In this document: positions 4,543-24,016 of the stretch, piece after piece
Layout of the letters: each line of letters opens with the position of its first letter
Position numbering within the stretch: position 1 is the stretch's first letter
From: a virus
Strand: one strand, 5' to 3'
Virus record (IMG/VR): IMGVR_UViG_3300015360_000172
Coordinates: 1 to 26,247 of that record
DNA: 26,247 nucleotides
The notes under the pieces: model-generated
Told to the model about the DNA's origin: nothing
Database searches by the model: none
The model's input: the letters and a program-made list of their open reading frames with translations, nothing else
Translations under genes and position numbers: made by a program

Positions 4543-7500
4543 ATGAGTAATTTTGATTTACAAAAGCAGTTTGATGCGATTAAGAAATCAGCCGTAGACG
4601 CTGTAAAAGAGATCTTTCCTGTTGAGGGGAAGATCCGGTCGATCAAACTTAATCGGGTTTGGGTTGAAGATAGCCTCAGCAGCACCGACTACACTTCCCA
4701 GTCAGCAGCCAAGAACAAAGAGACCACCTGGGGGGCTCCTGTTTACGCATCCTTGTCTTTAATTGAGAAGGGGTCTGGAAAAGAGATCGATAAGCTTGAA
4801 AAGGTAAAGCTTTTTACCTTGCCAAAACTAACTGAACGCTACAGCTACATTGTAAGCGGCAACGAGTACCAGGTTCACAGCCAACTTCGACTAAAGCCTG
4901 GCGTATACACGGTCCGTAAACAAAATGGTGAGCTTAAGACTCAAATAAATCTATCCAAAGGTAAGAACTTCGACCTGTCGTTTAACGAACGAACAGGCGT
5001 GTTCTACATTCAAAAAGTCGGCGGCGGGCAAGCAAACATACCCCTGTACCCGGTGCTAGCCCACCTAGGGGTTTCACCTGTGATGGTCACAGACAGGTGG
5101 GGAGGGAAGCTAGAGTCTGCAAACCGTGTCACTGACCCTAAAGCTGTTGCTAAGGCAGCGGCAGCTTTTGGTGCAAAGGACGGAGACCTTAAGGGGTATT
5201 TCAGCAACACCGAGATAAGCCCTGAAACAACCAAGGCAGTCCTAGGACAAAGCTTTGACCGTGTTGATGGCCCTATGCTTCTTGAATGCTCTAAGAGCCT
5301 CCTTGACGTGCACTTAGGTAAAAAAGAACCAACTGACAGGGACTCACTTGCCTTTAAAGAGCTGCACTCCGTAGAAGACTACATCCATGAACGGATCCAA
5401 AAGAATAAACAAAGCCTTGGGTTTAAACTCAAGCGCAACATTGATAACGTACGCCGTGTGAAATTAAGCCAACTGGTTAACCCAGGGTCGTTCAACTCTG
5501 TGGTAGAGACGTTCTTTACCCAAGACGACAAGTCATCTACCCCCGAGCAAACAAACCCCCTTGAGATGCTTACTGGCCAGTACAAAGTTACGATCATGGG
5601 ATCCGGCGGTATTAAGAGCGAGCACGCAGTTACCCCTGAGATGAGGGAGATTCACCCCTCTCACTACGGGTTCATTGACCCAATCCACACCCCTGAGTCA
5701 AGTAAAATTGGGGCTAACCTCCACTTACCGCTTGGTGCTGTTAAAGATGGAAAAAGCTTGAAAGCAGTCTTGCTTGATAAAAACAATAAGCCCGTAACAC
5801 TGGACTCCACTGCAGTCTTTGACAAGTACGTTGCCTTCCCTAACCAAAAAGGCGACATGGTTAAAGCTATTTACCGCGGCAAGGTAGAAGAGGTTGCCAG
5901 AAGCAAAATCGACTACACCACTCCAACCCCGCAGGCACTGTTGTCCTGGAGCACAAACCTTATCCCGTACCTACCCTCTAACCAGGGTAATCGTGCGATG
6001 ATGGCGTCTAAGATGCTTGAACAGGCAATCTCTCTTAAACACAGGGAAGCACCGCTTGTTCAAGTAGGCTTCGGAGCCACTACTAGCGAAAAACGTATTG
6101 GTGAGGGGCTTGTGGTCTCTGCTCCGGTCGACGGCGTCGTTAAGAAGGTGACCAAAGACTTCATCCTGATTAAGGGCAACGACGGCAAAGAGGTAAAGCT
6201 GGACCTCTATAATAATTTTACTCTCAACCGCAAGTCGTTCCTAAACCACGAGTCTAAAGTCAAAGAAGGCGACACAGTCAAAAAAGGTCAACTCCTTGCT
6301 GACAATAACTTCACCAAAGACGGCACCCTAGCACTTGGCACCAACATGCGCGTTGCCTATCTGCCGTACAAAGGGCTGAACTTCGAGGACGGAGTCGTCA
6401 TTACAAGCTCTGCAGCTAACAAGCTGACGAGCGAGCACATCCATAAAAAAGCTATTGAGGTCAGTGACACGCTGATCCTCAACCTCCCCGCGTTCACGAG
6501 CTTCTACCCGAACGCCCTAACTGGCGATAACATTAGAAAGCTCGACAAAGACGGGGTTATCAAAAAAGGTGCTCGCATTAAGCACGGAGAGGCATTAGCC
6601 ACCGTACTGCAAAAAAGAGTGGCATCCGCCATGGTAGCTAGCTTCAGCCGAGTGCTGTCTGACCGCCCTAAAGACGTGAGCATATACTGGACGCTTGAAG
6701 ACGAAGGCGAAGTTATAGACGTTCAAAGAAGCGGCAACCGAGTCACAATCCTAGTGAAGACCGAGGAAGCCGCGAAGATCGGAGACAAACTCTCTGGACG
6801 TATGGGCAACAAAGGCATCATCACTAAGATCATCCCAGACGCAGAAGCTCCTCACGACAAGAGTGGAAGGCCTGTGGACATCCTGTTGAACCCGCACGGA
6901 GTCATCAGCCGAATAAACATAGGACAAATCTATGAATCAGCCGCAGGTAAAGTTGCACAAAAAACAGGGAAACCAGTCCGCGTCGACAACTTCTCCGGTG
7001 AGAATTATCTCCAATCTACGAGAGATCTTCTCAAGAAAAACGGCATTGACGATAAAGAAGAGCTATTCGACCCCACTACAAAAAAATCTCTTGGCAAAGT
7101 ACACGTTGGCTCCCCATACGTTCTCAAGCTCTTCAAGCAGGGGACCGCGAACTTTTCGGTGCGTCAAGGGGGACCTGGCCAGCCTTACGACGCAAACCAG
7201 CAGCCCCTTAAAGCTGGTGGAGCCGAAGCGGCCAAATCGATGGATCTACTCACCGTCTACTCCATGCTCTCCCACGGTGCACGCGCTAACTTAAGGGAAA
7301 TGTCTTCGGTCAAGAGCAACCAAAATGATGAGTTCTGGAAAGCACTAAAAAGTGGGCAGCCGCTACCACAGCCGAATGCACCGTTCGTTTACGAAAAGTT
7401 CCTGCACTACCTTAAAGGTGCTGGCATCAACCCTATCAAAGAAGGTAGTAAGGTCATTCTTGCACCGCTCACTGACGCTGACGTTCGCGAGCAGTCTAAC

Positions 7501-10500
7501 GGCGAGATCAAGAAAAACTTCTTCTACCGCGGTAAAGATATGGAGCCAGTCAAAGGTGGCTTCTTTGATAAGAACTTAACTGGTGGCTACAAGGGCGTTC
7601 GCTGGAATCACATTGAGCTAAAAGAACCTGTCATCAACCCTGTGTTTGAGAACGCCGTAAGAAAACTTACAGGTCTAGGCAAAAAACTAGACGAGGTTAT
7701 CGCAGGAAAAATGCACGTTGACAAAGACGGCAACCTCAACACAGACGGGAAGGGTGTAACCGGAGGCCACGCTGTCAATAAGCTACTTAAAGCAATTGAC
7801 GTGGACGCAGAACTAGCCTCCCTTCAAAAGAAAATAACTAAAGCATCTGGTGCGGTACTTGATGACATCAACAAGCGTATGCGGTACCTGAAGGCTCTCA
7901 AAGACAACAAAATGAAACCTGAAGACGCATACATGCGCAAGGTACTTCCTGTCTTACCTCCTGTTTACCGCCCAGTGTACCCTTTGCCAGACGGGAGCAT
8001 GACCACCTCCGACATCAACATCTTGTATCAAAGCGCAGGCGTCGTAAACGAGATGATGCACCTTCCTGTTATGGACCTCTTAAAAGAAGAAGAAAAAGCA
8101 GACATCAGAAAAGACCTGTACGAGCACGTAAAGGGCGTATCCGGCTTAACGGACATGAATATCAAAGGACGAGACCGTAACGGCTTCATCTCTGAGATCA
8201 AAGGCGGTACTGGTGGTCAGCCGAAAGAGGGCTTCTTCATATCTAAGATGCTTTCTAAAAAGCAGGACTTTGTAGGACGAGGTACCATCATCCCAGAGCC
8301 AGAGCTAGGCATAGACCAAGTTGCGTTGCCAGAGGAAATGGCTTGGAAACTGTTTGAGCCTTTTGTCGTAAAGGAGCTTAGATCCCACGGCAAGATGCCA
8401 CTTCAAGCAGCAGACGAAATCAAGCAGAAAACACCTCTTGCAAAGCGTGCCCTTGAGATCGTTATGAAAGAAAGACACGTGCTGCTTAATAGAGCTCCGT
8501 CTCTTCACAAGTTTTCTATCATGGCGTTCAAGCCTACCATTACAACAGGGCGGGCTCTTAAAATCCCACCGTTAATCGTTAAGGGATTTAATGCTGATTT
8601 CAATGGAGACTCAATAGAAATCAGTGGGTTATGCCATACGAGGCTGTTGTCCCCTGATGGGGCCTGGACGTATTTAAGCCTATGCGCTGGAGAGCTGTTC
8701 CCCTTCCTTACAGGTAAAAGCGTAGAGGAGATGGTAGTGGATGCTAAAGGCTACACGGCTATTTATGAGTTGGCCCCTGGTAGACTACAGACCATCTCAC
8801 TAGTCAACAACCTCCCTACTTGGGCTGATGTAAAAAACCTAACCGTTCACACATCCCATGGCCCTTGTTTTCAAATAGATACGCACACTGGCACACGCAT
8901 AATCACTACTGAGCATCACAACTTTAGCTACATAGATGAGGAGTTAAATCTTCAATGCGTAAAAACCGAGGTGATGCCAACTAACGTATTGGTACCAAAA
9001 GCAAAGCCACACCTGAATGGCGGGTTACAGTCAATAGAGATTCCTGGAAGAGGTAAAATAGTCGTAGACGAGCGTATGGCGTGGATGCTTGGGCATTACG
9101 CTGGAGACGGGTGCAGTACGGACAATACAGTATCTGTCTGCGATACGGAAAAAGAGTTGCTAGACAAAGTCTGCTCAGTAATAAAAGAAAAATTTGGCTA
9201 TGAGTCTAAAAAGCAAGGAACCAAAAAGCACGCTGAGTGTATTACACGGATCTACGACAAGGAGGTTTCGGAGTGGTTTGCTAAAGAGTGTGGTGCGCGT
9301 TGTACAGACAAACGCATCCCTTCATGCGTTATGTCTAGCCCCAATGACGTGCGCCTTGCTTATATACAGGGCCTATTTCAAGCTGAGGGCAATATAAGTA
9401 AAGACTCTAACGGAAACTGGATTGCTAGGGTGGAAATGAAAAACCGACCCTTTCTCGAATCGTTACGTTTTATTATGGCAAGTGTAGGTATCGGATCCTA
9501 TATCCGTGATAGTAGCCATAACGGTATAAGCGACTACACAATCGTACGTATTGTTAAAGACGACATGCACAAGCTTCAGCTGCTAGAGGGAAAAAAGGCA
9601 GAACTTCTAAAGACGGCGTGTGATGTAAAAGACGGCAGACTTCGTAAAAACTCCTATGACATTGTTCCATTTTGCGAAAGCCTTTTGCTTGAAATAAGAA
9701 AGATCGGGGAAAGGCTACGTAAGCCGGATCAAGAACTTCGTACAAAAACCTCTTTGTGGAGAGAGGCAATCCCTGGAAGGCAGATCTGTATCAATGACCA
9801 CTTTAAAACAAAAACGCACTCCGTCTCCAGGCACATAGCAAAAGATATACTCCACACCTATGGCATGCTTGCTACCGGCCTATTTGAAAAGTGGGCTCAA
9901 ATAGTGATGAACGAAGACCTTCTCTGGGAGGAAATCACATCCGTTACAGAGGTCCCAAGACATGAGGTGATGTTTGATTTTACCGTACCGGAAGGGCAGA
10001 TATTTTGTATTCAAAACGGTTTGCTAACTCATAATACCATGACCGTCCATGTGCCAATCACAGAAGAGGCAAATGAGGAAGCAAAAAAGATGCTCCCGTC
10101 GAGAAACCTCTTCCAGCCAGGCACCGATAAGCTCATGATCGCTCCGTCTCAGGAGGCACAGGTAGGTATCTTTTACCTATCTCAGACTCCTGCCGGCAGA
10201 GCAACCCTCAACAAGATTCTTGGGCCAAAGTACGCGATAAGTGCCACACTTGATAAAAAGGGCACTGGTACGCTCCTGCACCGCATTGCAAAAGAGATGA
10301 AGGCACAAGACTACGGCCGCATCGTTGCCGAGCTGAAGAGTGCCGGCGAGGGCCATGCCTACGACCGAGGGTTTACATTAGGACTTAACGACCTTGCTAA
10401 TATTTCGAGTGCACGAGATAAAGTTGTTGCGCTTGCTACAAAGTTATCAAAGGGTGTTACAGATCCAAAGAGGCTTGCTGAAATCAATAAAAAGTCTACG

Positions 10501-11991
10501 GATCTTATTGATAAGGTTATAGAAAATAAACTCAAGGGTACTAATAACCCGCTCTACGACATGGTAGAATCAGGAGCAAGGGGAGAGAAGAGCCAGCTTC
10601 GTTCAATCGTAGCAACACCTCTTTTCGTAACCGACGCTCGTGGCAATACGATTGCCCGCCCTATCAAGAAGTCATACGCGGAAGGTCTCGATGTAAGTGA
10701 TTACTGGCTATCCATGTACGGCGCACGCCGAGGCGGCATGGACAGATCCATTCAGACTAGTCTTCCTGGGGCGTTCTCCAAGGACATCATGGCATCCACG
10801 GTTGATAACGTGGTAAGCGGGGTGGATTGTGGAACAACGGATGGCATCAAGCTCAAGGCCGATGATCGTGATGCACTTGACCGGTATCTGGCTGGCGCCC
10901 AATCGGTCCTCGCGCATAATACCCTTATCAACAATCAGGTACTTAACCAGCTTAAGAAAGCCGGGGCAAAAGAGATCAAAGTCCGCTCGCCTCTTACTTG
11001 CCATCAATCCCGAGGAGTCTGCGCAAAGTGCCATGGACTTGATGAACATGGTGAACTGCCCGGTATGGGAGAGAACGTTGGAGCTAAAGCAGGCCAAACT
11101 ATTTCTGAGCCGCTCATCCAGATTGTAATGAACACTCGCCACACTGGCGGTGTCGCAGGGACTGGGGCAAGCGCCGACGGCTACCAACGTATTAACCAGC
11201 TGCTTCAGCTCCCAAAGATCGTCCAGGGGGCAGCATCCCTGGCACCGCACGACGGCTACGTCACCAAGATCGAAAAAGGACTCGCTGGCGGTTTTAACGT
11301 CTATGTCGGAAAAGAGAGCGTGTACGTATCGCAAGGCCTTCCTCTTAAGGTCAAGGTTGGGTCCAAAGTCGTGGCTGGGGATCCTCTTTCTGAAGGCGTG
11401 ATCAAACCTCAGGACTTGGTGAAATATAAAGGCATGCAGCCTGCGCAAGAGTACATCGTTAATTCTCTACAAAATGCATACAAGGACCAAGGCGTCGGCA
11501 TTCAAAAGAGGATCTTTGAGACCATCATCCGAAGCCTTGGTAACACAACACGTGTCACCAACAACTCAAAAAATAATGATTACATCCCAGGGGACGTCAT
11601 CCCCTACACAGTGGCGAGAGCGTATAATCGAAATCTCATTTCGGCCGTACCTACAGAAGAAGCTACTGGATACAAATTGGCAGAGGAGGGGACTGGTCTG
11701 AAAGCTGGAAAAATCCTAGCCAAAGATGATATCCTTCTATTAAAGTCTAAGGGTTACAAAGAAATAAAGGTGGAGAAGGAGGCTATTCAGCACACACCAT
11801 TCCTTAAAGGGATGAGTGCTCTACCTCTTCTTAAAAAAGACTGGATGGGTGCTTTAGGGTACCGCTATCTTGCTAAGTCTCTCACCGAGGGCGCAAGCCA
11901 GCGTTGGGAAACAGACCTAAGTGGGCATCATCCAATACCTGCACTCGCTCATGGCTCAACATTTGGACAAGGGAAAGAAGGGAAGTACTGA
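4543..11991 (+). CDS. Fused beta-beta' multisubunit-type RNA polymerase, intein-containing
   Basis: DNA-directed RNA polymerase with both large-subunit cores in one chain: 2482 residues as read, 2007 after removal of the intein at residues 1357-1831. Beta part: REIHPSHYGFIDPIHTPES (about 367-385), LPYKGLNFEDG with the Glu-Asp pair (about 607), GDKLSGRMGNKG with two catalytic lysines (about 747), and a beta C-terminus near SHGARANLREM (about 910). Beta' part: GGFFDK to WNHIEL (the usual zinc ribbon between them is absent), VLPVLPPVYRPV (about 1135), LLNRAPSLHKFS (about 1313), NADFNGD (1350-1356), bridge helix near SMYGARRGGMDR (about 2055), a four-Cys zinc site (DCGT plus CxxxxxxCxxC, about 2095-2160) and trigger loop IVMNTRHTGG (about 2194). 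The middle catalytic Asp of DFDGD reads Asn (1354). The ATG at 4543 has no clear SD. The stop overlaps the next ATG. No alpha, omega or sigma gene is visible nearby. Confidence 0.93.
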   Translation: MSNFDLQKQFDAIKKSAVDAVKEIFPVEGKIRSIKLNRVWVEDSLSSTDYTSQSAAKNKETTWGAPVYASLSLIEKGSGKEIDKLEKVKLFTLPKLTERYSYIVSGNEYQVHSQLRLKPGVYTVRKQNGELKTQINLSKGKNFDLSFNERTGVFYIQKVGGGQANIPLYPVLAHLGVSPVMVTDRWGGKLESANRVTDPKAVAKAAAAFGAKDGDLKGYFSNTEISPETTKAVLGQSFDRVDGPMLLECSKSLLDVHLGKKEPTDRDSLAFKELHSVEDYIHERIQKNKQSLGFKLKRNIDNVRRVKLSQLVNPGSFNSVVETFFTQDDKSSTPEQTNPLEMLTGQYKVTIMGSGGIKSEHAVTPEMREIHPSHYGFIDPIHTPESSKIGANLHLPLGAVKDGKSLKAVLLDKNNKPVTLDSTAVFDKYVAFPNQKGDMVKAIYRGKVEEVARSKIDYTTPTPQALLSWSTNLIPYLPSNQGNRAMMASKMLEQAISLKHREAPLVQVGFGATTSEKRIGEGLVVSAPVDGVVKKVTKDFILIKGNDGKEVKLDLYNNFTLNRKSFLNHESKVKEGDTVKKGQLLADNNFTKDGTLALGTNMRVAYLPYKGLNFEDGVVITSSAANKLTSEHIHKKAIEVSDTLILNLPAFTSFYPNALTGDNIRKLDKDGVIKKGARIKHGEALATVLQKRVASAMVASFSRVLSDRPKDVSIYWTLEDEGEVIDVQRSGNRVTILVKTEEAAKIGDKLSGRMGNKGIITKIIPDAEAPHDKSGRPVDILLNPHGVISRINIGQIYESAAGKVAQKTGKPVRVDNFSGENYLQSTRDLLKKNGIDDKEELFDPTTKKSLGKVHVGSPYVLKLFKQGTANFSVRQGGPGQPYDANQQPLKAGGAEAAKSMDLLTVYSMLSHGARANLREMSSVKSNQNDEFWKALKSGQPLPQPNAPFVYEKFLHYLKGAGINPIKEGSKVILAPLTDADVREQSNGEIKKNFFYRGKDMEPVKGGFFDKNLTGGYKGVRWNHIELKEPVINPVFENAVRKLTGLGKKLDEVIAGKMHVDKDGNLNTDGKGVTGGHAVNKLLKAIDVDAELASLQKKITKASGAVLDDINKRMRYLKALKDNKMKPEDAYMRKVLPVLPPVYRPVYPLPDGSMTTSDINILYQSAGVVNEMMHLPVMDLLKEEEKADIRKDLYEHVKGVSGLTDMNIKGRDRNGFISEIKGGTGGQPKEGFFISKMLSKKQDFVGRGTIIPEPELGIDQVALPEEMAWKLFEPFVVKELRSHGKMPLQAADEIKQKTPLAKRALEIVMKERHVLLNRAPSLHKFSIMAFKPTITTGRALKIPPLIVKGFNADFNGDSIEISGLCHTRLLSPDGAWTYLSLCAGELFPFLTGKSVEEMVVDAKGYTAIYELAPGRLQTISLVNNLPTWADVKNLTVHTSHGPCFQIDTHTGTRIITTEHHNFSYIDEELNLQCVKTEVMPTNVLVPKAKPHLNGGLQSIEIPGRGKIVVDERMAWMLGHYAGDGCSTDNTVSVCDTEKELLDKVCSVIKEKFGYESKKQGTKKHAECITRIYDKEVSEWFAKECGARCTDKRIPSCVMSSPNDVRLAYIQGLFQAEGNISKDSNGNWIARVEMKNRPFLESLRFIMASVGIGSYIRDSSHNGISDYTIVRIVKDDMHKLQLLEGKKAELLKTACDVKDGRLRKNSYDIVPFCESLLLEIRKIGERLRKPDQELRTKTSLWREAIPGRQICINDHFKTKTHSVSRHIAKDILHTYGMLATGLFEKWAQIVMNEDLLWEEITSVTEVPRHEVMFDFTVPEGQIFCIQNGLLTHNTMTVHVPITEEANEEAKKMLPSRNLFQPGTDKLMIAPSQEAQVGIFYLSQTPAGRATLNKILGPKYAISATLDKKGTGTLLHRIAKEMKAQDYGRIVAELKSAGEGHAYDRGFTLGLNDLANISSARDKVVALATKLSKGVTDPKRLAEINKKSTDLIDKVIENKLKGTNNPLYDMVESGARGEKSQLRSIVATPLFVTDARGNTIARPIKKSYAEGLDVSDYWLSMYGARRGGMDRSIQTSLPGAFSKDIMASTVDNVVSGVDCGTTDGIKLKADDRDALDRYLAGAQSVLAHNTLINNQVLNQLKKAGAKEIKVRSPLTCHQSRGVCAKCHGLDEHGELPGMGENVGAKAGQTISEPLIQIVMNTRHTGGVAGTGASADGYQRINQLLQLPKIVQGAASLAPHDGYVTKIEKGLAGGFNVYVGKESVYVSQGLPLKVKVGSKVVAGDPLSEGVIKPQDLVKYKGMQPAQEYIVNSLQNAYKDQGVGIQKRIFETIIRSLGNTTRVTNNSKNNDYIPGDVIPYTVARAYNRNLISAVPTEEATGYKLAEEGTGLKAGKILAKDDILLLKSKGYKEIKVEKEAIQHTPFLKGMSALPLLKKDWMGALGYRYLAKSLTEGASQRWETDLSGHHPIPALAHGSTFGQGKEGKY
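8611..10035 (+). mobile_element. Intein with LAGLIDADG homing endonuclease, inside the RNA polymerase
   Basis: 475 residues inserted directly after NADFNGD. It begins at Ser (a less likely alternative is the Ser four residues later, SGLCHTRLL) and ends with GLLTHN, with Thr as the +1 extein residue. Block B is TRIITTEHHNF, and the C-terminal blocks are FDFTVPEGQIFCIQNG and LLTHN with the penultimate His and terminal Asn. Two LAGLIDADG helices are visible: MLGHYAGDG and IQGLFQAEG, both with acidic residues in the catalytic position, so the endonuclease looks intact. Excision restores NADFNGD-TMTVHVP, which aligns without gaps to the bacterial motif followed by QMAVHVP. The exact N-terminal junction is inferred from that alignment. 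Confidence 0.92.
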
Positions 11992-20501: not shown

Positions 20502-20956
20502 AGAAGTGGCACCGCTCAGGCTGTCTGCTTAAAAAGTAGACTTGTCACCGAATGCGGTCCGCAAGCGGTGAAAACACTGGTGACAAGCATGATTCGTTAA
20601 CGGTATTAAAAGGTTAGGGCTTAAAAAGTGGGGAAAGTGAAAAATCAATCGGTGACAGGTAGTAGTAAGGTATATAGTAATATAATTATATACTTATACT
20701 TATACTATATCTATTGTCACCACTGTCACCGACTATTTCCTTATGTACTAGCTATGCAGTCTAACTCATTATTTATTTCCCCAACACAATTTACGTGTGT
20801 ATGTCCTTATATAACCGCTTACATAACCCCGAATCAGCGGTTCTTCGGTGACAAATGCCTTAAGCCTTTGAATATACAAGTAAATAGCTGTACCAGAGCA
20901 CCGGTGACAGACCCCCCCCAAAACACCCCAACCGGTGACAAATGGGAGGTGGCGGC
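20502..20956. other. Non-coding region with eight GGTGACA boxes (candidate pac/cos, operator or origin)
   Basis: No supported gene lies in these 455 bases. The word GGTGACA occurs on the plus strand at 20579, 20651, 20847, 20903 and 20934, and on the minus strand (TGTCACC) at 20543, 20715 and 20724. The consensus is about (C/T)GGTGACA(A/G). Two copies form a perfect 9-bp inverted pair (CTTGTCACC at 20541, GGTGACAAG at 20579) around the palindrome TGCGGTCCGCA. Two others enclose an AT-rich stretch (20668-20713) of alternating TATA/TACT. The last copy lies immediately before the terminase start region. The arrangement resembles a site for a sequence-specific DNA-binding protein such as a terminase small subunit, a repressor or an initiator. 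Confidence 0.7.
20944..20949 (+). promoter_or_regulatory. SD that decides the terminase start
   Basis: GGGAGG, seven bases before GTG 20957. An in-frame ATG at 20942 overlaps this SD and has none of its own, so GTG 20957 is taken as the start. Confidence 0.75.
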
Positions 20957-23900
20957 GTGAGTAGTGGCAAAGACTTAATGTTATCAGAAGGTTACGACGA
21001 AGACGAGCCAGACTCTAACGAAGAAATTGGAGAAACGACCAATCACTACCACGACAAAGTGGACCTGCCTAAAATTGATACAGTGGCTAGGGTCACTGAG
21101 GCATTCAATGCCGATGGGTCTGTCAAAAGATTCATCAAAGCGACCAAGTCTGACTTCGTCCACAACCTTGTCTTCCTGGATGGGGTTAAATTCGATTTTA
21201 CGGGCCGTGAGTACCTGCTACCCATCTACAACCGTAACGACCACGACATCCTACTCAAGACGGCTCGTCAGGTTGAAAAATGCTCGATAAAATCAACCAC
21301 TTATCTTAAACACGATGGTTCTGTTGTTACAGTTGAGGATTTACGACCGGGGGACAAGCTTGTTGCGTTTGACGAGAGGCACAGACCCGTCATAGCCCGT
21401 GTGAAGGCGGTAGCTCCCAACGGAGTCCAGCAGGTCGTCAAAATAACAACCAGGGAGAGGCGGAGCACCACCTGCACCCTCAACCACCCTTTCCGTACTC
21501 TCTTCGATTGGACACCAGCTAGAGACCTCCTGGTTGGAGATTTCATAGGCCTCCCCCATCGGGCGGGACGGTTCGGCCACAAGCACTGCCCTTTGGAGGC
21601 GGAGTTCGTAGGCCTTATGTTGGCGAAGGGCATACTCTACGAGAACTCTGCCGTCTTCACACAAAACTTTGGTCCAGCACTAGACCGGTTCTTAGAGGTT
21701 TGCTCTCTGCTCGACGTAAAGCTGGAGCAGAGAAGATTACCAAGCCGGCCAAGCATAGCTAGCGTAACAATACGGAGTGGAGCTTTTGAGCTCTTCGATC
21801 TGATCTCCCCTCACACGGATGAGAGAAGCTCAGGATCTATAGCGTTACCAGGTTGGGCTTTTGATCTTGACCATGCTAGCGCAGCGGCCTTATTACGAGG
21901 GTTGTGGGCCGGGGACGGGCACTGTAAAAACGTAAGAGATGGGAAAATAGATCTTTGCTACTCGACGACCTCAAAAGAGCTGGTTGGGGGGATTGAGCGG
22001 CTTCTTCTGAAGTTTGGGATCTTCAGTCAAACTCGCATTAATAAGCCTACGCTTTGTAAAAACACAGACAAGGTTGCTTACGTACTCAGTGTCATCGGTT
22101 CCAGATCAATACGGCGTTTTTTTCGTGAAATAGGACCTATACCTGGCAAATTATTTACACTTAAAAAAGAGTGCGTGGACAAAGATCAGTCGGACATTAT
22201 CCCAAAAGAGGTGGGTAGACTGATCAGAAAAATTGTAAAGGAGCGCGGGTCTAGAGTGCACAGTGAGACTCTATTTGCAGACGGCCTGCGGAGTACACCT
22301 GAATACAATCTCCAGAGAGACAAGTTTTTAAAATATTGTGAGTTTTTTGATGATGCGCGTCTGTGGGACATATACCACGGCGAAGTGTACTGGGACAAAA
22401 TTGAGTCTATAGAAGTCTCACAGCCGGAAGAGACTTTCGCTGTAGAGATGGAGGAGTATTATAATTTTGTGACTGATGGCATCATCACTCACAACACCAC
22501 CTTCCTCGCCAACAACCTCGTAGTCTCGTCGGTGGTCCAGCCATACAACAAAAGCCTGTACGTTTCCCCATCACATACCCAGACCCGTCAGTTCTCAAAC
22601 GAAAAACTCAGACCAGCGATCGAGAAGTCCCCTTTCATCAAGCGGTACTTTCAAGACCACTCGGTCTCAACCCAAGTTTTCGAGAAGGGCTTTACCAACG
22701 GAAGTTACGTCTTCCTCAGGTCAGCGTTTAGGTCAGCGGATAGGACGCGTGGAATTTCAGCACGTAACCTGGCGTTGGACGAAATACAGGACATGTTGGG
22801 ATCCGAGATCCCAGTTATCATGGAGTGTACCTCCCACTTTCCAGATGCTAACCGCCTTATGGCCGGTACACCGAAGTCTTTGAACAACCCTATCGAAGCC
22901 TACTGGCAGGAAACATCTCAAAACGAGTGGTTAGTCCCATGCTCTTGCGGCAAGTGGAACTTCCTAGATGAGACCAACATCGCGCCGACTGAGATGTACC
23001 TTAAAGATAAGTTACCACCTGGCCCTGTCTGCAAAAAGTGCATGAAGCCCCTTAACGTCAGGGCTGGCAGGTGGATGACCACTTGCTCGGGGAAGCTCAT
23101 TCAAGGGTACCGCATCCCGCAGCTCATGGTGCCATGGATCATTGGGCTAAAAGACCAATGGATGCGCATTCTTTGGAAGAGGGATAACTACCCACTGGGG
23201 CAGCTCTACAACGAGGTCTTGGGGCTGTCCTATGACTCAGCATCGAAGCCAATTACAAGAGATCAGCTTATCGATCTTTGTCAGCCATACGACCTATGGG
23301 ACCCAGAAAACCTGACCCCTGAGAATCTTCAAGAGTCACATGGGTTGCTGCTTACGGCCGGAGTTGACTGGGGCGAAGGTAACGACGGGACCGAGAAGTC
23401 ACCTACTGGCAAGATAAGAAACGCGTCATACACGGTTCTTACCATCGGCGCCTACATTAACCAGAAAACGTGGTCAGTCAAATTGGTAAAAAAATATGAG
23501 GGCAGGGAAGTAGACCCCGACCATGTCGTTAAAGACATAGCCAGGATCTGCAGAGTACTAAACGTTCAGCTGGTCGGCGTCGACTGGGGGCACGGGTGGG
23601 GGGTAAATAACCACCTGACTAGACTGATGTCTCCTCAAAACAACCCACGAATCGTAGATGCTTATGGAAAACATAAGGTCGTACAGTTCCAGTATCTGCC
23701 CAAATTAAAGCAGCGAATGAAGTGGGATCCTACTGGGTTTAGATATCATCTTCAAAGAAACTTTATGATGTCAGAACTTTTCTTTGATATGAAGCACGGG
23801 TTCATTCAGTTTCCGCGATGGGCCCAGATTGAGCGTTATGCCAAAGACGTTCTTGCGATATTTGCTGAGTACGTGGAGTACCGCCGTGAAATGAAGTATG

Positions 23901-24016
23901 ACCACAGGTCTACTGATCCTGACGACTGGTTTCACAGTCTTCACTACGCTAAGCTTGCTTCGGACATCCTATCAGGGAAAAGCCGAAGGTATACACTCGA
24001 CATCCCGCAGGAGTAA
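20957..24016 (+). CDS. terL: Large terminase subunit, intein-containing
   Basis: 1019 residues from GTG 20957; 614 after intein removal. This is the packaging motor ATPase and nuclease that cuts concatemers and pumps DNA through the portal. Walker A is split: ARQVEK before the intein and TTFLANN after it, giving ARQVEKTT (the T4 form is SRQLGKTT; here Glu replaces Gly). Walker B is LALDEIQD, followed by the coupling motif LMAGTPKS. A zinc-binding insert follows (PCSCGKW, then CKKCMKP and a later Cys). The C-terminal RNase-H-like nuclease shows AGVDWGEG, VGVDWGHG and DPDDWFHSLHYAK, supplying the acidic metal ligands. The motor and nuclease look complete. It follows the GGTGACA region. Confidence 0.95.
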   Translation: MSSGKDLMLSEGYDEDEPDSNEEIGETTNHYHDKVDLPKIDTVARVTEAFNADGSVKRFIKATKSDFVHNLVFLDGVKFDFTGREYLLPIYNRNDHDILLKTARQVEKCSIKSTTYLKHDGSVVTVEDLRPGDKLVAFDERHRPVIARVKAVAPNGVQQVVKITTRERRSTTCTLNHPFRTLFDWTPARDLLVGDFIGLPHRAGRFGHKHCPLEAEFVGLMLAKGILYENSAVFTQNFGPALDRFLEVCSLLDVKLEQRRLPSRPSIASVTIRSGAFELFDLISPHTDERSSGSIALPGWAFDLDHASAAALLRGLWAGDGHCKNVRDGKIDLCYSTTSKELVGGIERLLLKFGIFSQTRINKPTLCKNTDKVAYVLSVIGSRSIRRFFREIGPIPGKLFTLKKECVDKDQSDIIPKEVGRLIRKIVKERGSRVHSETLFADGLRSTPEYNLQRDKFLKYCEFFDDARLWDIYHGEVYWDKIESIEVSQPEETFAVEMEEYYNFVTDGIITHNTTFLANNLVVSSVVQPYNKSLYVSPSHTQTRQFSNEKLRPAIEKSPFIKRYFQDHSVSTQVFEKGFTNGSYVFLRSAFRSADRTRGISARNLALDEIQDMLGSEIPVIMECTSHFPDANRLMAGTPKSLNNPIEAYWQETSQNEWLVPCSCGKWNFLDETNIAPTEMYLKDKLPPGPVCKKCMKPLNVRAGRWMTTCSGKLIQGYRIPQLMVPWIIGLKDQWMRILWKRDNYPLGQLYNEVLGLSYDSASKPITRDQLIDLCQPYDLWDPENLTPENLQESHGLLLTAGVDWGEGNDGTEKSPTGKIRNASYTVLTIGAYINQKTWSVKLVKKYEGREVDPDHVVKDIARICRVLNVQLVGVDWGHGWGVNNHLTRLMSPQNNPRIVDAYGKHKVVQFQYLPKLKQRMKWDPTGFRYHLQRNFMMSELFFDMKHGFIQFPRWAQIERYAKDVLAIFAEYVEYRREMKYDHRSTDPDDWFHSLHYAKLASDILSGKSRRYTLDIPQE
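21281..22495 (+). mobile_element. Intein with LAGLIDADG domain, inside the terminase Walker A
   Basis: 405 residues, Cys1 (CSIKSTTYLKHDG) to THN, with Thr as the +1 residue. Block B is TTCTLNHPF, and the C-terminal blocks are TFAVEMEEYYNFV and DGIITHN. The endonuclease helices read FVGLMLAKG and LRGLWAGDG: the first has Lys where the catalytic Asp belongs, so cleavage activity is probably lost although splicing residues are intact. It is clearly different in sequence from the polymerase intein, so the two were acquired separately. Confidence 0.94.

Follow-up and report, generated by a model that had tools for sequence, protein, structure and literature searches.

An asparagine in place of the middle catalytic aspartate of phage RNA polymerases appears as the inherited partner of one mobile intein family

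Introduction

In multisubunit RNA polymerases, the middle aspartate of the catalytic NADFDGD loop is one of the three invariant residues of the Metal A site; exchanging residues of either Metal A or Metal B is reported to eliminate transcription in bacteria, in archaea and in eukaryotes (PMC2605557). An encoded asparagine at a position otherwise held by aspartate is known from ribosomal protein uS11, where the bacterial Asn-Gly is converted almost stoichiometrically to isoaspartate, and archaea and eukaryotes encode Asp directly (PMC7550191). Moreover, co-conversion of the sequences flanking a mobile element is an established feature of homing in phages (PMC2988022).

In this study, a viral DNA stretch of 26,247 nucleotides (the window; IMG/VR record IMGVR_UViG_3300015360_000172) was analyzed, in which an RNA polymerase gene encodes Asn instead of the middle catalytic Asp. 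As judged from comparative sequence analysis, this Asn is a real, inherited partner of one intein family in a few tailed phages. No report of such a variant was found in the literature searched, which is weak evidence of novelty.

Results and Discussion

The Fused RNA Polymerase Gene and Its Catalytic Loop

All features described for the window are located on the plus strand. The open reading frame at positions 4543..11991 encodes a fused beta-beta' RNA polymerase precursor of 2482 amino acids including an intein, as deduced from its Pfam domains (PF00562, PF00623, PF04998, PF04565 and PF05000, plus the intein domains PF14890 and LAGLIDADG_3), the beta and beta' domains being arranged in the expected order. 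The N-extein (4543..8610) comprises the beta part and the N-terminal beta' part, and the C-extein (10036..11991), delimited by codon comparison with sister sequences, starts with TMTVHVP and thus with Thr as residue +1. After removal of the intein, the extein is 80.6% identical to the intein-less relative L125.

Translation of the catalytic loop at 8590..8610 yields NADFNGD, the sequence elsewhere being NADFDGD. The codon AAT at 8602..8604 encodes Asn for the middle catalytic Asp, and alignment places this residue at splice-site position -3. As encoded, the window reads D-F-N-G-D at 8596-8610 and not the Metal A triad D-x-D-G-D. These readings agree with the initial annotation, which had also located the Asn two codons from the intein junction (the Ser1 codon starts at 8611) and had described all other motifs as intact. 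As far as conservation shows, the latter holds as well: the Metal B Glu-Asp of beta (NFEDG) is intact within the invariant GLNFEDGVVI, and the window protein has 0 changes at 121 columns that do not vary elsewhere in the polymerase family. The Asn column itself is missing from this set, because further Asn alleles were included in the comparison.

A second, more weakly linked residue was observed 15 codons upstream of the Asn, in ALKIPP (window 8554-8571), where all Asn alleles have Leu; Ile is nearly universal among the Asp alleles, with L127 as the exception.

The Intein in the Catalytic Loop

Directly behind the loop, an intein of the LAGLIDADG type comprising 475 amino acids was identified at 8611..10035, running from Ser1 to a C-terminal His-Asn. 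Matches to PF14890 (E 8e-12) and PF14528 (E 7e-16) represent its splicing and endonuclease domains. The intein is absent from L125 at exactly this point, where NADFDGD is followed immediately by TMTVHVP. Block B (TTEHHNF, 8905..8925) has an invariant T-E-H-H-N-F core in the intein alignment, and the catalytic Asp of the first LAGLIDADG motif (GHYAGDG, 9091..9111) and the catalytic Glu of the second (GLFQAEG, 9370..9390) are conserved in all aligned inteins. The C-terminal blocks FDFTVPEGQIFCIQNGLLTHN (9973..10035) coincide with the end of the PF14890 match and contain the invariant residues D456, H474 and N475; the intein ends at 10035 as LLTHN, followed by TMTVHVP. Hence, the residues of a class 1 intein (Ser1, T-E-H-H, H474-N475 and Thr+1) are present and invariant in the alignments. 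A structure predicted for the intein and its flanks, built from five sequences, reached a mean pLDDT of 40 and was too poor for use.

In all five sequences with Asn (see below), the intein family starts with S-(I/C)-(E/D)-I directly after NGD. It is quite improbable that the intein begins four residues later, leaving a mature loop NADFNGDS-x-(E/D)-I-TMTVHVP in which a new acidic residue would take the place of the missing Asp. A TIGR01445 match of low significance (E 0.034) points in this direction, since it aligns position 6 of the profile with T30 of the L122 fragment and would make the fifth residue behind NGD the first of the intein; furthermore, an acid is conserved at this place (E, D and D). 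However, Ser1 is unchanged in the lineages carrying this intein although its codons belong to both serine classes (TCA, AGC and TCC), whereas the later residue varies (S, S, T). Moreover, the insertion point after DGD is exact against L125, and many other inteins at the same site begin with Ser or Cys right after DGD.

Distribution of Asn and Asp Alleles

A collection of 2.9 million viral contigs was searched at the DNA level for GFNADFNGD, because the broader pattern NADFNGD had mostly returned unrelated repeat proteins. Four contigs besides the window were found (L122, L123, L124 and L128), all encoding homologous polymerases in long uninterrupted frames, as does the window. The five sequences represent three lineages, namely the window, L122, and the group L123/L124/L128, whose members are mutually 98.6–99.9% identical; between lineages, exteins are 60–63% identical. 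Each of the five encodes Asn-Gly as AAT GGA or AAT GGG and carries the same intein family directly after the motif. Scans with the intein only and with extein plus intein did not find further members of this family.

About 40 intein-less relatives have Asp at the motif position, nearly all as NADFDGD, and no intein-less Asn allele was found among them. As a control, bacterial genomes were searched for NADF(D/N)GDQM; 228 of 284 matched, and Asp is present in all of the approximately 150 matches listed. Extein position 1365, the Asn itself, is the sole column where a residue common to the Asn alleles stands opposite one that is fixed in every other sequence. Aligning the motif with and without the intein, as had been suggested earlier, therefore places Asn exclusively beside one intein family. 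Since the same Asn recurs in four other contigs belonging to two further diverged lineages, neither chance nor error accounts for it; a sequencing or assembly error, one option of the initial annotation, or a recent single mutation has a negligible probability.

In the intein-less relative L138, GLDFDGDTVVVHVP was observed in place of NADFDGDTMTVHVP, the Asn and Ala preceding the triad being replaced.

Movement of the Asn Codon with the Intein

In the extein tree, the combination of Asn and intein occurs on three separate branches, two of which adjoin intein-less Asp sisters, and this label changes three times, each change being forced by strongly supported branches. The sister of the window is L125 (80.6% identity) and those of L123 are L135 and L139 (73%), all lacking the intein and having Asp.

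The codons around the junction show the footprint expected of co-conversion, indicating that intein and Asn codon move together. On the left side (8596..8610), the window reads GAT TTC AAT GGA GAC, compared with GAC TTT GAC GGA GAC in L125, and TTC AAT GG is common to all Asn alleles. On the right side, the Thr codon at +1 is ACC in all alleles with Asn and intein, compared with ACG in the sisters L125 and L135; past ACC, the flank resembles L125, with 97% identity over 10 codons.

Furthermore, the identities of inteins and exteins are out of step (71% vs. 60% between the window and L122; 50% vs. 63% between the window and L123), so the intein probably moved horizontally between lineages. Among the options raised initially, a link with the intein is thus strongly supported, since Asn was never seen apart from a single intein family and is carried along by it. 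The example then given, a site escaping homing, finds no support because the Asn alleles are the very carriers of the intein.

The idea that inteins in general change the residues flanking them was also considered and is not supported. The large terminase gene of the window (20942..24016) has its own intein at 21281-22495 in the Walker-A region (ARQVEK, then C...HN, then TTF), and its flanks are unchanged relative to intein-less relatives. The odd Walker A motif (ARQVEKT, not GRQVGKS) is native in these relatives; the terminase intein therefore did not alter its flanks.

Additional insertions were noted in related polymerases. In L123 and L128, the beta part contains a second insert of approximately 350 amino acids after HTPE, reading CYDEETEVFTREGW...GN followed by SDKIG, which is absent from the near-identical L124 and is probably another intein that was recently gained or lost. 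In L137, an apparent intein is located near MNAFH/CNHSDSLV in the trigger-loop region; this fused polymerase shares 40% identity with L125, has Asp and lacks a loop intein.

Other Inserts at the Same Site

Searches for NADF(D/N)GD with Ser or Cys as the next residue also revealed many inserts at the same point, identifying the catalytic loop as an intein hot spot. Seven of them are Pfam-confirmed inteins of other families (L234, L236, L237, L238, L254, L256 and L259). RpoC resumes behind the intein within the scanned stretch in six of the seven, and in L256 the frame stops near the intein C-terminus. L126 contains a different intein family, as indicated by a Pfam match, and L127 a similar insert. 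Residue -3 is Asp in all seven confirmed inteins as well as in L126 and L127.

These comparisons also favor an intein that begins with Ser1 immediately behind the motif. A general need for Asn in Ser1 splicing at this site was considered and is ruled out: other Ser1 and Cys1 inteins keep Asp, and Asn is therefore required neither for insertion at this point nor for an intein starting with Ser1. A charge swap, with an acidic residue at intein position 3 whenever -3 is Asn, was likewise discarded; the idea is post hoc, and L255, a candidate intein whose insert runs off its contig, combines an acid at position 3 with Asp at -3.

Several further inserts deserve description in their own right. In L163/L263 (IMGVR_UViG_3300042923_000307; L191:1043-1144), an RpoC-like frame ends as NADFDGD followed by SVAGDTYVIVQDTDGTVRLVKIKDVE and a stop codon, which looks like the N-part (26 amino acids, starting with Ser1) of a split intein located in the catalytic loop; the ORFs in the 7.8 kb that follow yielded no candidate C-part. 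L230, L244, L258, L261 and L264 have Ser1 inserts of approximately 130–140 amino acids after NADFDGD that end at a stop codon and represent candidate N-parts of split inteins; Pfam and NCBIfam returned no match for the two inserts scanned (L230 and L264). In L126 (12048-) and L127 (13128-), the inserts start with neither Ser nor Cys (QQYDF.. and DQQNL..), and the recognizable intein hairpin begins about 30 residues into the insert. The lead of the L126 insert resembles a duplicate of the RpoC segment that follows the motif.

Age, Constraint and Likely Activity

Between lineages, synonymous sites of the intein are saturated (4-fold identity 40/142 at a dN of 0.22), and dN is in the range of 0.22–0.48. 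Saturation together with these dN values indicates that intein and Asn are old and that the intein is under purifying selection. Branch lengths of the polymerase are nearly equal for Asn alleles and their Asp sisters (0.121 and 0.129 in one pair, 0.186 and 0.182 in the other). Apart from the Asn, the polymerase appears as constrained as that of its Asp sisters and probably works; a substantial disadvantage of Asn beside this intein is unlikely. Three diverged lineages, inteins down to 50% identical, saturated synonymous sites and unrelaxed constraint speak against a recent inactivating mutation, which had been listed as an option. The accompanying statement that the substitution is not part of general decay is borne out by equal branch lengths and intact conserved columns.

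Inactivation is what a triad change would be expected to cause, and the polymerase may be dead or regulatory, the phage relying on the host enzyme or another polymerase. In line with this, contigs carry one RpoC-like gene each; they are fragments, and no second RpoC-like gene was found on those examined. Nevertheless, the Asn lineages evolve no faster, the 121 invariant columns are unchanged and the frames are long and uninterrupted in all five sequences. A search for T7-type polymerases, conducted without a positive control, found nothing. Among the readings considered, a dead polymerase thus appears least compatible with the constraint data, and it is regarded as unlikely.

Proposed Role of the Asn Residue

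With somewhat better than even confidence, we propose that the Asn is a resident part of the splice site of one mobile intein, spread by co-conversion, and that the polymerase is functional after splicing. A Ser1 LAGLIDADG intein resides between NADF(D/N)GD and TMTVHVP in fused beta-beta' polymerases of tailed phages and would home into intein-less alleles, repair copying the intein and a few flanking codons. In this process, the donor Asn codon, ending 6 bases from the junction, would replace the Asp codon of the recipient. Its persistence suggests that Asn is at least as fit as Asp next to this intein, and as residue -3 it may suit this particular N-terminal splice junction. The spliced enzyme would contain NADFNGD and, judging from its undiminished constraint, would work. 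Linkage, horizontal movement, the co-conversion footprint and undiminished constraint are supported by the sequence data. The splice-site role faces the objection that same-site Ser and Cys inteins keep Asp, so that a need for Asn would have to be specific to this intein family; in addition, with only three independent lineages, strict neutrality between Asn and Asp is statistically compatible with the data.

Two end states of the residue, which we hold to be about equally probable within the proposed explanation, would be Asn acting as a direct metal ligand and Asn converted to Asp by deamidation. Taken as accounts in their own right, both are tentative. Concerning the former, which corresponds to the tolerant natural variant listed initially as an option, the side-chain oxygen of Asn may bind the catalytic Mg2+, perhaps in a slower enzyme, and the link with the intein would be hitch-hiking after a single origin. 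Single origin and co-conversion would be enough for the observed distribution, and constraint is unchanged. This direct tolerance is opposed by the transcription-dead phenotypes reported for Metal A and Metal B mutations and by the presence of Asp in all intein-less relatives and listed bacterial matches. Moreover, one transition would restore Asp, yet no reversion was seen beside this intein family.

Regarding the latter end state, Asn-Gly is the classic deamidation sequence, and the substitution creates exactly this pair. The Asn may be silent beyond the gene level if Asn-Gly passes via a succinimide to Asp-Gly, either alone or aided by a conformation that the intein holds, a possibility that is no less doubtful than direct tolerance. 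It is consistent with a fully constrained polymerase and with an Asn never seen without the intein, and the conversion in uS11 provides a precedent. In peptides, however, the main product of deamidation is isoaspartate, which weighs against this route. An isoaspartyl methyltransferase (PIMT) encoded by the phage for repairing deamidation products was not found in the contigs searched, which are fragments, and this counts against both deamidation and the proposed explanation. A further objection is the half-life of spontaneous deamidation, which is on the scale of days (PMC7550191).

A more far-reaching version, in which the intein edits its host by holding Asn-Gly in the precursor for conversion to Asp during or after splicing, is considered very unlikely. 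If true, the polymerase would be active only if the intein had been present, making the intein indispensable, and precise intein loss leaving Asn would kill the enzyme. The lack of intein-less Asn alleles among the approximately 40 relatives is predicted by such editing and equally by hitch-hiking.

Conclusions

The Asp triad has been described as invariant in multisubunit polymerases, and a natural Asn version persists in several phage lineages. These polymerases offer a direct test of either the variability of the triad or the post-translational restoration of a catalytic residue. Furthermore, a mobile intein appears to bring a non-synonymous change, through co-conversion, into the catalytic center of a gene that is apparently important. 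This would represent a concrete way for selfish elements to reshape enzyme active sites.

Compared with the NADFDGD Metal A motif of RpoC, the window polymerase shares the fold families (PF00623 and PF04998), the loop and the conservation of its flanks, but it encodes Asn for the middle Asp, has an intein right after the motif and is a fusion of beta and beta'. The polymerases of Salmonella phage Arash, whose gene is located near the portal gene, and of Vibrio phage D69 likewise unite beta and N-terminal beta' in one chain and are approximately 32–33% identical to the window protein; this type has AADYDGD and no loop intein, and its first chain ends soon after the loop. The intein resembles class 1 LAGLIDADG inteins (PF14890, PF14528) in Ser1, block B, the C-terminal His-Asn followed by Thr and the two LAGLIDADG motifs, and differs from them in a fixed non-consensus extein residue at -3 within the active site of its host. 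Bacterial ribosomes, in Asn119-Gly of uS11, likewise encode Asn-Gly where other domains encode Asp (PMC7550191). There, the product is isoaspartate in a structural protein, whereas the conversion considered for the window polymerase is hypothetical and would concern a catalytic site.
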